Notes: a model not told the origin generated them from the sequence alone. A stretch of 34,593 bases of DNA from a virus (IMGVR_UViG_3300036985_005044:1-34593); one strand, 5' to 3'; counted from the stretch's first letter, positions 27,582 through 34,164 are shown. A program made the numbers and translations.

Positions 27582-28697
27582 ATGACGACCTTTTCGAACC
27601 CGACCCGCAAGACCAACCTGATGGACCTGAACGCGCAGTGGGCCGCGCGCCCGGCGGACCAGCGCTTCCTGACCATCGCCGAGCTGAAGCAGGCCGTGCT
27701 GAACCGGCGCAATGAGAGCTGGACGACTGCGCACGCGATCGCCGAGGCGCGCGCGCTGCCGAGCGCCAACGGCATCGAGATCGCCCTGCGCCGCAACACC
27801 AACAACGCGCAGGTCGCCGTGCGCCCGAACCACTGGAGCTTCGGCCAGATCAGCAGCGCGGCGAAGGCGCCGGCGAGCTACCTGCGCCGGCTGCCGGCGG
27901 AGCTGGCCGCGATCAACCTGCAGTGGGGATTGGAGAAGCTCTCCGAGAAGGCCGACGGCCTGTTCCTGACGCGCCACCACAGTGACGGCACGCAGGAGCT
28001 GGAAGCCGTGACCAGCACGACCTACGGCCGCATTTGGGACAGCGACGTGGTCGCGGCCGTCGAGCGCGTGAACGAGGATGGCCGCTGGAAGGTGCCGAGC
28101 GCGAGCTATGCGACCAGCAACCCGCGCCGCGCGACGACCCTCTACGCCAGCGACCGCGACGTGTGGATGTTCCTCTGCGACGAGCAGAACCCGATCGAGG
28201 TGGACGGCGAGCGCCTGTTCCGCGGCTTCATGACCTGGAACAGCGAAGTCGGCGCCAGCGCGTACGGCCTCAAGACGTTCCTCTACCGGCACTGCTGCGA
28301 CAACCGGATCGTGTGGGGCGCGCAGAGCGTGAACACCCTGATGATCCGCCACACCGGCGGAGCACCGGAGCGATTCGCGCACGAAGGCCGCAACCTGCTG
28401 CGCAACTACGCCGAGGCGAGCACGCAGGAGATGGTCGCCGGCATCCGCAAGGCGAAGCAGGTCGTCGTCGAGGACCCGGCCGAAAAGAACAGCGTGCAGA
28501 GCTGGCTGCGCTCGCGCGGCTTCCAGGCCAGCGTGGCCGACGCATCGGTGAAGGCCGCCGTCGCCGAGGAAGGGCAAGCGAGGACCCTGTGGGACATCGT
28601 GCAGGGCATCACCGCGCACGCGCGCAGCATCGAGAACACCGACGATCGCGTGGCCCTGGAAGTGCGCGCCGGCGCCCTGCTGGACCGCGTGAACTGA
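27582..28697 (+). CDS. DUF932 / TIGR03299 phage-plasmid protein
   Basis: 371-aa protein of the family found in many phages and plasmids and expressed early, function unknown. The family blocks are all there: an N-terminal domain with QVAVRPNHWSFGQISSAAKAP and SYLRRLP, then LFLTRHHSDGTQELEAVTSTTYGRIWDSDVV, DRDVWMFLCDEQNPIEVDGE, LFRGFMTWNSEVGASAYGLKTFLYRHCCDNRIVWG and a helical C-terminus. Length is usual for the family. AGGA (27571-27574) lies seven bases before the ATG, behind a 13-pair hairpin. Confidence 0.88.
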   Translation: MTTFSNPTRKTNLMDLNAQWAARPADQRFLTIAELKQAVLNRRNESWTTAHAIAEARALPSANGIEIALRRNTNNAQVAVRPNHWSFGQISSAAKAPASYLRRLPAELAAINLQWGLEKLSEKADGLFLTRHHSDGTQELEAVTSTTYGRIWDSDVVAAVERVNEDGRWKVPSASYATSNPRRATTLYASDRDVWMFLCDEQNPIEVDGERLFRGFMTWNSEVGASAYGLKTFLYRHCCDNRIVWGAQSVNTLMIRHTGGAPERFAHEGRNLLRNYAEASTQEMVAGIRKAKQVVVEDPAEKNSVQSWLRSRGFQASVADASVKAAVAEEGQARTLWDIVQGITAHARSIENTDDRVALEVRAGALLDRVN

Positions 28698-29919: not shown

Positions 29920-30097
29920 TCCGGGCACGACCCGTTGCGTCGGCGGCCGCAGCCGGCTACAAGATCCAGCATCCCCACCCTCGGGATCGGTCGTGCGCGG
30001 TCGAGGGTCCATGGCCGCGCCGGTCCTTCGCCCTTTTCAGCGGCGGAGCACCGCGGCAGAGTTGGCCGCCCGGCATTTCGCCGGCAGGACCCGACCG
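29920..30097 (+). other. Structured intergenic leader before the wHTH gene
   Basis: 178 nt without a gene. It holds an inverted repeat ACCCTCG/CGAGGGT (29977-29983 with 30002-30008), GCGGC/GCCGC (30053-30057 with 30065-30069) and CCGGC/GCCGG (30070-30074 with 30080-30084); AGGA (30086-30089) then precedes the ATG. I see no copy of the repeated promoter. It could contain a differently built promoter or an RNA switch; nothing is diagnostic. Confidence 0.4.
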
Positions 30098-31315
30098 ATG
30101 ACCGACCCTAAGCCGCGCCGAGGCTGCAGGCACCTGTGGGTGCCGCGCCGACCAGCCACCGAGGCCACAGGAAGGCTGCTGCTCGTCGCCCTGGCCGCAG
30201 ACCGACCGGAAGGGCACCCGGACAACGTGGCCGCAACCGCGCGGCTTCTGCGCGCCTCAGAGCCGAGCGTGCGCACATGGCGCAGCAGCGCCCTGGCCGA
30301 CGGCCTGCTGGAGCGCACGAGCGACGGCCGGCTGGTCCCAGGACCGGCGTGGCAGCAGTGGGAGCGCGACGCGGACGCGGCGCTGCGCGAGGCCGGCGGC
30401 CGCGGCGGATGGGACCCGCTGCCGCGAGCCTTCCTGCGGCGCGGCCGGCGCCCGGCGATCATTCACGCGGCAGCCGTGGTCTACTCCGACGCGGTCGGCT
30501 GGCGCAAGGCCACGGCATACGTGCGCGCCGACGCCGAGCGAGCCGGCCTCGCCGGCACGTGCCGCGCCAGCGTCCGCGCGGCGAGGCGCGAGATGGAGGC
30601 CGCCGGCCTGATCACGGTGCAGCGGCTGAAGCGCGGCCGCGCCGCGCTGTGCGCCGCGCAGCAGGCCGACGGCCGGCCGGCGACGCATGGGTCCCCGATG
30701 GCCGGCAGCCGGGCTCAGACGTTGGCCGAACGAGCAGCCCGGCACCGAGCAGCCATGTCCGGTTTCCGGCCCAGAAACGAGGCGCCGGCTACCCCCAAAT
30801 GGACGACCCCAGCTACCCCCAAATGGACGACCTCACACCATCAGGTTCCTTCGGAACCAATCCCCATCAGAGCGCCGAACGCTCGATTCGATGGTCAGAG
30901 CCGGCTGCGCCAGGACGATGGACGGCAGGCCGTCGAGCAGTGGCTGGCGACCCCGAGCAGGTGCGAGCAGTGGCTCATCGACAGCAGGTCCCGGCCGCAG
31001 CAAGCCGCCGGCGAGCTGCTGGCCCTGACGAAGTGCTGGGACCGCGCGCCGCGGCGCCGCGAACGGTTGGCGGCGGAGCTGGCCAGCCGCTACCGGCGCG
31101 ACGTGGGCACGCTGCTGCTGGCCGTGCTCTGCGACCTGCTCGTCACGAACGGCCGTCACCGGCCGCGGAGCATCGGCGCCGTGTTGGCGATGCGCGTCGC
31201 GCACATGACAGCCGGCAAGGCCTCCGACGGAATCGGCGCGCGGCACCGCACCTCGACGGTGGCGCAGTTGCTGGCCGACGCGCGAGCGCGCGCTAGAGTC
31301 ACCGCAACAGCATGA
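30098..31315 (+). CDS. Two-wHTH protein, possible replication initiator
   Basis: 405-aa protein. A first winged helix spans about 25-82 (NVAATARLLRASEPSVRTWRSSALADGLLE, wing RTSDGRLVP) and a second about 118-185 (KATAYVRADAERAG, RREMEAAGLITVQRLKRG). A linker (about 200-290) contains the tandem octapeptide ATPKWTTP. The C-terminal helical domain (290-395) has RRRERLAAELASRYRRDVGTLL. The first wHTH resembles those of phage DnaD/O-like initiators, and iteron-like DNA repeats lie in the linker region, as in lambda O. A transcription regulator is the alternative. The start at 30098 has AGGA eight bases upstream; earlier in-frame ATGs fall in the structured leader. Confidence 0.5.
   Translation: MTDPKPRRGCRHLWVPRRPATEATGRLLLVALAADRPEGHPDNVAATARLLRASEPSVRTWRSSALADGLLERTSDGRLVPGPAWQQWERDADAALREAGGRGGWDPLPRAFLRRGRRPAIIHAAAVVYSDAVGWRKATAYVRADAERAGLAGTCRASVRAARREMEAAGLITVQRLKRGRAALCAAQQADGRPATHGSPMAGSRAQTLAERAARHRAAMSGFRPRNEAPATPKWTTPATPKWTTSHHQVPSEPIPIRAPNARFDGQSRLRQDDGRQAVEQWLATPSRCEQWLIDSRSRPQQAAGELLALTKCWDRAPRRRERLAAELASRYRRDVGTLLLAVLCDLLVTNGRHRPRSIGAVLAMRVAHMTAGKASDGIGARHRTSTVAQLLADARARARVTATA
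30788..30832 (+). repeat. Iteron-like tandem repeat inside the wHTH gene
   Basis: Two copies of a 21-bp sequence starting GCTACCCCC and ending TGGACGACC (30788-30808 and 30812-30832), 24 bp apart. The GCTACCCCC core also occurs upstream of promoter copies 1 (25375) and 3 (27083). Confidence 0.7.
30844..30858. other. Inverted repeat next to the iterons
   Basis: GGTTCC-TTC-GGAACC, a perfect 6-bp palindromic arm pair 12 bp after the second iteron-like repeat; a possible protein-binding or origin element. Confidence 0.5.
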
Positions 31316-31968
31316 CCACGAAGCAGCTCGCGTGGCCGGCAGCTCTCAAGCCGCTGGCCTTCCCCATCGACCAACTGAAGCCGGACCCCGGCAACGCGCG
31401 GCGTCACAACGAACGCAACATGGCCGCGATCGAAGCGAGCCTGCGGCGGCACGGCTGGCGCGGCGTGGTGGTCGCGAGGCGCAATGACAAGCGCATCCTG
31501 GCCGGGCACGGCCGCATCGAGGCCGCGCGCCGGCAAGGCGAGACCACGGCGCCGGTGCTGTTCGTCGATGGCAACGACGCGCAGGCCGCAGCCTTCGCCG
31601 TCGCTGACAACCGCACGGCCGAGCTGGCCGGCTGGTCGGCGGAGCTGCTCAGCGAAGCGCTCAGCGAGCTGACGCAGGACGAACAGGCCGAGCTGGCTTT
31701 CACGATGGAGGAGATCCACCAACTGACCAACGCGACGCTGCCGGTGCTCGACGACGAGCAGCAGGCACCGCAGAGCACGCCGGCGGCCGCGGCGCCGAGC
31801 AGCCGCACCGACCGGAAGGGCGCCGCGACCGTGCAGCCGCTCAGCGTGCTGTTCCTGTTCGACGCGGCGGAGCACAAGCGATGGAAGGCGGCAGTGCAGC
31901 GCCGGCTGGCAGCCAAGACCCCCGACATGGCGCACGCGATCGTGCAGGCGCTGGAGGCCGCGAAGTGA
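31312..31968 (+). CDS. ParB-like (ParB/Srx-fold) protein 1
   Basis: 218-aa protein. Residues about 13-105 make a ParB N-terminal domain: LAFPIDQLKPDPGNARRHNERN (box I), RILAGHGRIEAARRQGE (box II, residues 61-77) and FAVADNRTAEL. The central HTH of chromosomal ParB is missing, so it is the short phage type, known to have nuclease or NTP-hydrolysing members rather than partition function. The C-terminal third (138-218) is a linker and a helix. It overlaps the wHTH stop and is followed by a second ParB-like gene, then by DNA-base-modification genes; a role in that pathway or in DNA recognition is inferred. Confidence 0.8.
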   Translation: MTTKQLAWPAALKPLAFPIDQLKPDPGNARRHNERNMAAIEASLRRHGWRGVVVARRNDKRILAGHGRIEAARRQGETTAPVLFVDGNDAQAAAFAVADNRTAELAGWSAELLSEALSELTQDEQAELAFTMEEIHQLTNATLPVLDDEQQAPQSTPAAAAPSSRTDRKGAATVQPLSVLFLFDAAEHKRWKAAVQRRLAAKTPDMAHAIVQALEAAK

Positions 31969-32552
31969 CGACCAACACCCTGGGCAAGCTGATGTTCCCG
32001 ATCGCCAAGCTGCGGCCGGACCCGCGCAACCTGCGCACGCACGACGAGCGCAACGTCGAAGCCATCAAGGCCTCGCTGAAGAAGTGGGGCTGGCGCGGCG
32101 TGATCGTGGCGCGCAAGAAAGACCGCGTGGTCATCGCCGGCAACGCCCGGCTGCAGGCCGCGAAGGAACTGGGCATGAAGCAGGCGCCGGTGCTGTTCGT
32201 GACGGACACCGAGGCCGACGGCCGCCGATACGCCATCTCCGACAACCGCACCGCGGAGCTCGCGACATGGGACGCGGAGAAGCTGGCCGAGCAGATCGCC
32301 GGCATGGGCGACGACGTGGAGTTCAGCGGCTTCGCCGACGACGAGATCGAGGCGATGGCGCAGCACGAGGCCGGCGACGACGACGACGACAGCGACGAGC
32401 AGGAGCCCGGAGACGCGGACATTTTCCAGGTGCGCGTGCAGTTCGACGGTGCGTTGCGCAAGCGCTACGAGGCGGCAATCACGGCAGCGCGGCAGCGAGC
32501 GAAGGGACGCAGCGACAGCGAGATCGTGCTGGCCGCGATGTGCAAGCGATGA
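31965..32552 (+). CDS. ParB-like (ParB/Srx-fold) protein 2
   Basis: 195-aa paralogue of the preceding protein. Residues about 8-100: FPIAKLRPDPRNLRTHDERN (box I), RVVIAGNARLQAAKELGM (box II, with Asn where the first has His), YAISDNRTAEL. An acidic Asp-rich linker (about 150-163) precedes a basic C-terminal helix ending CKR. GTG 31965 overlaps the preceding stop, with GGAGG at 31953-31957. The His/Asn difference in box II suggests the two copies differ in activity. Stop overlaps the dioxygenase start. Confidence 0.8.
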   Translation: MTTNTLGKLMFPIAKLRPDPRNLRTHDERNVEAIKASLKKWGWRGVIVARKKDRVVIAGNARLQAAKELGMKQAPVLFVTDTEADGRRYAISDNRTAELATWDAEKLAEQIAGMGDDVEFSGFADDEIEAMAQHEAGDDDDDSDEQEPGDADIFQVRVQFDGALRKRYEAAITAARQRAKGRSDSEIVLAAMCKR

Positions 32553-33415
32553 CGAACATCATCGTGGCGCGCACGCTGCGCAGCGACGACGAGATCAACG
32601 CGCTGGTCGGCAAGCGAGTGGAGCGCGACGACTACGTGGCGCACCTGACCGGCGACGTGGCGGTGTTCGCGCCGAACGGCAAGCTGGCCGCGCGCTGCAT
32701 CCCGCAAGCGATTCCGAAGGACGTGGCCGACCGTTGCCGACCTTGGCTGCGCAGCCTGCAGAAGGCGCTGACGACGAACCGCGGCGAATACAGCGGCGTG
32801 GCGCCGCGCCGGCGCGTGCGCGCCGACGGCACGCTGAGCGACACCGCGGAGTCCGTTGCGGTGCCGAGCGCCGTCGCCGGCTTCATGGACCGCATGGGCG
32901 GCCGGTTCCCCTACTGCCGGCCTTGCGCGCTGAACCGCGGCAGCGGCTGGGCACGGTTCGCACCGTTCGCGCAGGTCGTCAGCGATCACTTCCGCCGAGC
33001 GCTGCCCGACCGCTGGCAGCGGCAGATGGACGAAGCCCGCAAGTGCGACCCGGCGTGGCTGATCCCGGGCACGCCGTTCAGCACGATCACCGTGAACAAC
33101 ACGTTCCCGGCCGCGTGCCACCGCGACGCCGGCGACTACAAGGAAGGCTTCGGATGCATCGCCGTGCTGCGGCGCGGCCGCTACGACGGCGCGTGGTTGG
33201 GCTTCCCGCGATACCGCGCGGCGTTCGACCTGCAGGACCGCGACCTGCTGCTGTTCGACCCGCACGAAGTGCACGGCAACACCAAGTTCACCGACCCGAA
33301 AGGCGAGGCGCGCAAGGACTGGGAGCGCATCAGCATCGTGTTCTACCTGCGCAGCCGGATGCGCGACTGCGGATCGCCCGAGCAGGAGCTGAAGCGAGCG
33401 AGGACCACCAAATGA
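32549..33415 (+). CDS. TET/JBP-family 2-oxoglutarate/Fe(II) dioxygenase
   Basis: 288-aa enzyme expected to hydroxylate the C5 methyl of 5-methylcytosine or thymine in DNA, using Fe(II), 2-oxoglutarate and O2. The double-stranded beta-helix core is clear: VNNTFPAACHRDAGDYKEG with the iron ligands His191 and Asp193, AWLGFPRYRAAFDLQDRDLLLFDP, third ligand His242 in HEVHGN, and Arg260 in WERISIVFYLR for 2-oxoglutarate. An upstream RFPYCRPC segment (about 119-126) is common in phage members. The gene overlaps its neighbours on both sides (ParB-like and glycosyltransferase), as expected for one pathway. Whether the substrate is 5mC or T cannot be told; no methyltransferase is in the window. Confidence 0.88.
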   Translation: MTNIIVARTLRSDDEINALVGKRVERDDYVAHLTGDVAVFAPNGKLAARCIPQAIPKDVADRCRPWLRSLQKALTTNRGEYSGVAPRRRVRADGTLSDTAESVAVPSAVAGFMDRMGGRFPYCRPCALNRGSGWARFAPFAQVVSDHFRRALPDRWQRQMDEARKCDPAWLIPGTPFSTITVNNTFPAACHRDAGDYKEGFGCIAVLRRGRYDGAWLGFPRYRAAFDLQDRDLLLFDPHEVHGNTKFTDPKGEARKDWERISIVFYLRSRMRDCGSPEQELKRARTTK

Positions 33416-34164
33416 AACGCATGGCACGCATCGCAGTGATCAGCGCCGCAAGGCCGGACAACGTGCCGGTGATGCTGAAGCACCTAGCCAAGAGCCGGCA
33501 CGAGGTGGCTTGGTTCGTTGGGGCTGACGACCGACGAGAGTACGAAGCGGCAGGTGCGCGCAACGTGTTTGCCAGCGGCGGCCTGATCGCAGCGCGCAAT
33601 GCAGCGCTCGACTGGGCAGACGAAGGCGACAGCACGTGCGTGCAGGTCAGCGACGACCTTGTTGACGTGAGCGAGTTCGACGCCGCAACGCGGAAGGCAA
33701 AGCCTTGGAGCCTGCGCGCAGCTATCGACGTGTTGGTGGAGAATGCCAACACCGCAGGAGCGCGGCTTGCCGGCATCCCACCGACAGCAAATGCGTTCTA
33801 CGCGAGCCGCGAAGTGAAGGCGGCCGCGTTCTGCATTGGCGACTTGTTCGCGTGCAGGAGGACACCGTTGCGGTTCAGCCACGAAGTGCCGACGAAGGAA
33901 GACTATGACTGGACCTGCAAGCATCTCTCGACGCACGGCGCCGTCGCGCGATGCGACTGGATCTTGGCGAAGTTCCGGCACTACGACGGATACCGGCTTG
34001 GCAAGCGGCCGCCGGCAGGAGTCGGAGGCAACCAAGCGCTGCGCACGATCGAGTTCGAACAGCAGGCAGCAGACGCGCTGATGCGCAGGTGGCCGCACTG
34101 GATCAAGCCGCACCCGAAGAACCGTGGTGAGGTAGTTTTGCGAGCGCGAGCGAAGCTCACTTGA
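33412..34164 (+). CDS. TET/JBP-associated glycosyltransferase (TAGT-like)
   Basis: 250-aa GT-A-type glycosyltransferase. The N-terminus has a Rossmann-like strand and loop (RIAVISAARPDNVPVMLKHL), AWFVGADD, then GGLIAARNAALDWADEG and VQVSDDLVDV, in which Asp81/Asp82 stand where the DxD-type metal- and sugar-nucleotide-binding acidic pair lies. Later blocks are ALRLSHEV-like RFSHEVPTKEDYDWT and a C-terminal basic segment. Adjacency and overlap with the dioxygenase match the reported TET/JBP plus glycosyltransferase pairs of phages. The likely job is to put a sugar on the hydroxymethyl base. AGGA (33401-33404) lies seven bases before ATG 33412. Confidence 0.8.
   Translation: MKRMARIAVISAARPDNVPVMLKHLAKSRHEVAWFVGADDRREYEAAGARNVFASGGLIAARNAALDWADEGDSTCVQVSDDLVDVSEFDAATRKAKPWSLRAAIDVLVENANTAGARLAGIPPTANAFYASREVKAAAFCIGDLFACRRTPLRFSHEVPTKEDYDWTCKHLSTHGAVARCDWILAKFRHYDGYRLGKRPPAGVGGNQALRTIEFEQQAADALMRRWPHWIKPHPKNRGEVVLRARAKLT

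Follow-up and report, generated by a model that had tools for sequence, protein, structure and literature searches.

Four overlapping genes at the right end of a viral DNA record very probably constitute a DNA hypermodification cassette, in which two ParB-like proteins are encoded together with a TET/JBP-family dioxygenase and a TET-associated glycosyltransferase (TAGT). The record, IMG/VR IMGVR_UViG_3300036985_005044, is 34,593 bases long and was analyzed in its entirety (hereafter, the window). Because it is classed linear, the window is probably a fragment. Its gene content reads as that of a siphophage, including a gpA-type terminase, a Mu gpT-like head protein, and lambda-type tail genes. 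The cassette lies on the + strand and encodes ParB1 (31312–31968, 218 aa), a ParB_N-domain protein with a ParG-like (RHH) C-terminal module; ParB2 (31965–32552, 195 aa, GTG start), a paralogue of ParB1 with a ParB fold in its model; a TET/JBP-family Fe(II)/2-oxoglutarate dioxygenase (32549–33415, 288 aa); and a TAGT with a predicted GT-A fold (33412–34164, 250 aa). The four consecutive genes with overlapping stops and starts described in the original prediction are present at exactly the coordinates given there, and every junction is a 4-nt NTGA overlap (ATGA, GTGA, ATGA, and ATGA, from the boundary of ParB1 with the gene before it at 31312 through that of the dioxygenase and the glycosyltransferase). 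Such overlaps suggest translational coupling. The operon extends beyond the four genes and includes, upstream, an HTH-domain gene on the + strand (30098–31315, start inferred, within the ORF 29993–31315; HTH_29, E = 3.9e-5) that likely has a replication or regulatory role. The gene after the glycosyltransferase runs from 34285 to the contig end, and its N-terminal part resembles a PD-(D/E)XK nuclease. Elsewhere in the window, positions 27582–28697 encode a DUF932 protein (PF06067, E = 1.8e-7; phrog_1362, E = 1e-44). Scans of the window for tRNAs and Rfam families were both negative.

The dioxygenase matches the Tet_JBP family (PF12851) with an E-value of 6.4e-22 and 78 bits, above the curated cut-off of 34.9. 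The residues named in the original prediction (His191, Asp193, His242, and Arg260) are as stated; they correspond to the HxD...H iron ligands and the 2-oxoglutarate-binding arginine, are intact in the window, and are kept across 156 TET sequences. Judged from these residues, the protein should be an active oxygenase. A profile made from four TET sequences also matches human TET2 (E = 6e-4), with H191 and D193 aligned with the HRD motif of TET2. Relatives of the dioxygenase occur in GenBank phages and in at least 579 IMG/VR loci. Several Tet_JBP relatives are publicly labeled "queuine tRNA-ribosyltransferase" or "SNF2 DNA repair protein," including phrog_6059/RefSeq mycobacteriophage cluster B gp2 and proteins of DLP6, Cr30, and S-CBWM1, and these labels look like misannotations.

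The TAGT profile PF20691 matches the glycosyltransferase over nearly the full profile length with an E-value of 8.4e-4 and 19.8 bits, below the curated cut-off of 27.5; several accepted relatives likewise score under this cut-off. An AlphaFold model built from 38 sequences (mean pLDDT 93) has a named TAGT protein as its top Foldseek match (TM 0.86, E = 3e-23), and its PDB matches are GT-A enzymes. Since this confident model matches a named TAGT, the assignment is independent of the weak Pfam score. Acidic sites are present at S80-D81-D82 (metal-site motif) and K162-E163-D164 (xED motif), and D81, D82, E163, and D164 are invariant among the 38 relatives, which bears out the GT-A-like acidic pair that had been predicted. 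Where other TAGTs have a DDD motif, the window enzyme has a serine in place of the first aspartate. Taken from the sequence and the predicted fold, the enzyme is a member of a diverged TAGT subfamily of GT-A type.

Approximately 155 IMG/VR and GenBank phage loci were compared for partner genes. Single-sequence scans of viral contigs with the dioxygenase or the glycosyltransferase gave no match, and alignment queries were required; a DNA-level search of GenBank phages and a scan of genome contigs with the glycosyltransferase were also without a match. An alignment of TET sequences, used as the query, matched at least 579 viral loci; the 80 best were retained and, with the window, make up a set of 81. 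From the search with the glycosyltransferase, 80 of 155 relatives were kept. Neighboring genes were labeled using home-made HMMs and simple ORF calling. A ParB gene was present within 6 kb of the TET gene in 77 of the 81 loci (the best 80 of at least 579, plus the window) and directly upstream of it in 52, and ParB genes were 7.4 times denser within 1.5 kb of TET than in the remainder of these loci. When loci were found through the glycosyltransferase alone, 71 of 80 contained a TET gene, in agreement with the predicted location among TET/JBP-associated glycosyltransferases, and 54 of those 71 also contained ParB. Chance is excluded, as homologous cassettes occur in a large number of unrelated phages. 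Overall, the proposed cassette for hydroxymethyl-pyrimidine formation and glycosylation is well supported as a prediction by an intact Tet_JBP active site, a GT-A enzyme of TAGT fold, and the recurrence of this gene set in dozens of phages.

The double ParB had been regarded as the less usual part of the module, and here the survey points the other way: ParB is the most constant partner of the TET clade, and tandem ParB genes occur in 10 other loci (11 with the window), mostly alongside TAGT. Contiguous ParB-ParB-TET-TAGT genes as in the window are present in three loci (L108, L109, and L110), and two others (L100 and L118) contain all four genes as well, separated by gaps or inserts. In a tree of ParB sequences the window pair joins together, as does the L118 pair, and the pairs of L026 and L063 form a separate group. 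These pairings indicate that ParB was probably duplicated more than once, tentatively so in view of the long branches. Several loci contain additional genes. In L104 (4697–5971; also in L113 and L114), an ORF of about 420 aa that lacks Pfam matches but carries a radical-SAM-like CxxxCxxC motif lies between a second ParB and TAGT and is a possible extra step in a ParB-TET-ParB-x-TAGT cassette. L119 encodes a group-1 glycosyltransferase (PF13524; 2163–3170) between TET and TAGT, which suggests a second sugar in some relatives. A ParB-TAGT-TET locus (L184, 6533–8861) was found in the genome of an isolate of Haloechinothrix alba and is probably a prophage. Two loci (L144 and L147) have the arrangement ParB...TAGT-FkbM...ParB with no TET detected, and their oxygenase may have been replaced or may have diverged.

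The genes that accompany TET in these loci also bear on the base that is modified. Across the 81 TET loci, a 5hmU-type P-loop kinase (PF18751) and/or an amino acid:DNA transferase (ADDT; PF18724/PF18746) was present in 52 and TAGT in 19, and no locus combined TAGT with either (Fisher p = 1.3e-11, relatedness of loci ignored). On the TET tree (IQ-TREE, 52 rows) the kinase and glycosyltransferase labels switch at least 15 times, and well-supported mixed pairs include L036 (TAGT) with L068 (ADDT), at 99% support, and L025 with L038. The window TET groups with those of L018, L019, L032, L044, L113, and L119 (SH-aLRT 90), which are mostly kinase-linked; its nearest row, L018, is 44% identical and has both kinase and ADDT (Pfam-confirmed). 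In the window, a fragment searched with home-made HMMs, neither kinase nor ADDT was found, and TAGT stands in their place. The annotation of Rhodococcus phage Tonitrus combines ParB, a TET-like protein, aGPT-PPlase, and a 5hmU kinase as a thymidine hypermodification system (PMC11955845), and enzymes of both these types, kinase and transferase, are part of thymidine hypermodification (Lee et al. 2018, 2022, cited in PMC11955845). A C5-methyltransferase (PF00145) was not found in the 34.6-kb window fragment; in the survey it was present in 5 of 94 records and was not found in the other 89, including most records longer than 40 kb. Dedicated HMMs, which cover short forms such as those of L100 and L143, likewise gave none in the window. 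Because related TETs occur with kinase and ADDT, and because C5-methyltransferases are rare in the relatives and were not found in the window, thymine is favored over 5mC, and a route from thymine through 5hmU to glycosyl-5hmU is fairly probable on this genomic context. The residue five positions after the HxD motif was considered as a marker of base specificity and rejected. At this position TET2 has N1387, which presumably contacts the pyrimidine, and the window TET has D196. Aspartate or asparagine here defines two deep TET clades, each with kinase-linked and glycosyltransferase-linked members, and since either residue is found in both contexts it does not settle the base.

The main alternative, clearly less probable but a serious possibility, is a cytosine route in which a C5-methyltransferase, encoded by the phage past the contig end or by the host, would form 5mC, TET would convert it to 5hmC, and TAGT would glycosylate the product. 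As the window is a fragment, the part of the genome that it lacks could encode such a methyltransferase. Burke and colleagues reportedly described in 2021 phage cytosine hypermodification clusters with C5-methyltransferase, TET, and glycosyltransferases, and the phage TETs characterized in that work are said to act on 5mC. Such clusters resemble the window in combining TET with a glycosyltransferase on a 5-methylpyrimidine (predicted for the window) and differ from it in their C5-methyltransferase, of which none was found in the window, and in that ParB is the constant partner here. PMC12730594, which summarizes this work, also gives 5mC as the substrate of characterized phage TETs, for which this chemistry is established. 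The T6-type TAGT (beta-glucosyl-HMC alpha-glucosyltransferase, PF20691) acts on a modified cytosine, adding a second glucose to already glucosylated hmC (PMC13216743). It shares the GT-A fold and the TAGT family with the window enzyme, and a phage homologue so named matches the model with TM 0.73; the window TAGT, in contrast, would have the TET product itself as its substrate. In addition, L100, whose glycosyltransferase is 41% identical to that of the window and among its closest relatives, has a small C5-methyltransferase-like gene between TET and TAGT inside a ParB-ParB-TET-x-TAGT cassette, and C5-methyltransferases also occur in L143 and in the L101 record. The TET of L100, however, falls outside the deep clade of the window TET, in the one with asparagine at HxD+5, the main partners of TETs related to that of the window are 5hmU-type kinase and ADDT, and the scarcity of C5-methyltransferases across the records also stands against this route. 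The methyltransferase-like proteins of L100 (2589–3299) and L143 (5767–6438) are very short, carry SPPC and ENV motifs, and lie near TET/TAGT; one scores below and one above the PF00145 cut-off.

ParB1 and ParB2 are 39% identical over 185 aa. ParB_N (PF02195) matches both at E-values of about 1e-4 (1.5e-4 for ParB1), below its cut-off. Among the PHROG ParB families, phrog_620 matches ParB1 (E = 4e-32) and phrog_498, a family of ParB-DNA methyltransferase fusions, matches ParB2 (E = 4e-36). The ParB family profile matches ParB/Noc structures with an E-value of about 2e-16, and the model of ParB2 (pLDDT 87) matches CTP/CDP-bound ParB structures with TM 0.55. Canonical ParB nucleotide-binding boxes are QPR, GxRR, and ENxxR. 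Those of the window family are related yet altered (NxR, G[NH]xR, and DN[RK]), with N22 and N94 invariant and G59 kept in 38 of 39 sequences. A module common to the family makes up the C-terminal 45 residues, and its profile matches ParG, a ribbon-helix-helix partition protein, over residues 34–69 (E = 6.4e-5, PDB profile search). Pfam scans gave no consistent family for the C-terminal module and no HTH domain in ParB1 or ParB2. Of the three functions proposed for the pair, namely DNA recognition, nuclease, and kinase, the first has gained from these results: a ParB CTPase-like N-terminal domain together with a ParG-matching C-terminal module makes DNA targeting likelier than nuclease or kinase activity. 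We infer that the window ParBs bind DNA and guide the enzymes encoded beside them.

It is unlikely that the ParB pair are unrelated partition or regulatory genes merely adjoining TET and TAGT. Phages commonly carry ParB-like genes, the proteins of the window resemble true ParB folds, and their C-terminal module resembles a plasmid partition protein; the authors of the DLP3 study have interpreted its ParB domains as serving phagemid maintenance (PMC7326821). Set against this are the position of ParB directly upstream of TET and its enrichment there in diverse phages, the fusion of ParB_N of the same kind to DNA methyltransferases (phrog_498 and PADLOC MTase_II), and the absence of ParA among the Pfam-annotated window genes and the recurrent neighbor families. 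A direct enzymatic role, as a ParB/SerK-type kinase or a nuclease acting on the hydroxymethyl base, is more doubtful still. The ParB/Srx superfamily includes serine kinases, profile matches to SerK and SbnI are weak, and Foldseek aligns 76–82 residues to SerK, but CTP-binding ParB/Noc proteins give the best matches in both fold and sequence, ParB is found both with and without a separate P-loop kinase, and the C-terminal RHH-like module suggests DNA binding.

The reading that we favor, with moderate confidence, is that a TET recruited by ParB makes 5hmU from thymine after replication and that TAGT glycosylates it, hiding the DNA from restriction. The ParBs would bind phage DNA through the N-terminal ParB CTPase-like fold and the C-terminal RHH module and may recruit the oxygenase or spread it along the DNA. 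The TET/JBP enzyme would convert thymine in DNA to 5-hydroxymethyluracil by oxidizing its 5-methyl group, a chemistry suggested by its family and intact residues, with thymine as the substrate suggested by genomic context. TAGT would transfer a sugar from a nucleotide-sugar to the 5hmU hydroxyl to give a base-J-like glycosylated 5hmU, and the product would most likely hide phage DNA from host restriction nucleases. Modification of host DNA or another nucleic acid, for regulation or takeover, is very improbable, for although a ParB-directed substrate could be sequence-specific, the nearest analogues (thymidine hypermodification and T-even glucosylation) act on phage DNA, and the operon has a coupled HTH-type gene. 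In kinetoplastids, base J is formed when JBP1/2 hydroxylate thymine in DNA and JGT glycosylates it. The predicted logic of the window is the same, with a different glycosyltransferase and with ParB proteins here in contrast to a J-binding domain there. More tentatively, the tandem ParB may be a CTP-gated RHH DNA clamp that loads on phage DNA and carries a thymine-hydroxylating TET along it, with TAGT glycosylating the 5hmU. The modification would then be base-J-like and made by a ParB-guided oxygenase, on a core for which phages use different, interchangeable finishing enzymes.

Parts of this arrangement are already known. Thymidine hypermodification with ParB and TET appears in a published annotation (PMC11955845), and the ParB-TET-TAGT order is present in GenBank Arthrobacter phages. 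Prairie and Altadena (MW601223 and OR521058; ParB-TET-TAGT-PIG-L) encode ParB-like, Tet_JBP, and TAGT proteins in the order and strand of the window, and differ from it in having one ParB, a small gene between ParB and TET, and an additional PIG-L deacetylase; the TET of Altadena is in the other deep clade, and the glycosyltransferase of Prairie is only 26% identical to that of the window. The ParB-TET core is also shared with the ParB-TET-ADDT/aGPT-kinase systems of Rhodococcus phage Tonitrus, mycobacteriophage Hangman, and IMG/VR loci such as L018, in which the second step is performed by a P-loop kinase and an amino acid:DNA transferase instead of TAGT. To these the survey adds ParB as a near-constant partner, its RHH-like module, mutually exclusive and repeatedly swapped finishing enzymes, and a recurrent double ParB. 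No paper stating any of these four points was found in the literature that was searched; key papers lay outside that search, and priority is uncertain. TAGTs have been described as GT-A enzymes, and those without partner glucosyltransferases, in 288 of 753 phage genomes, as functionally open (PMC13216743); the many TAGT relatives that lie in ParB-TET cassettes bear on this question of solitary TAGTs. Kinase/ADDT and TAGT exclude each other and are swapped on one oxygenase core, from which follows the testable prediction that the base is 5hmU and the product glycosyl-5hmU. What ParB contributes to base modification becomes directly testable in culturable ParB-TET Arthrobacter phages and mycobacteriophages.
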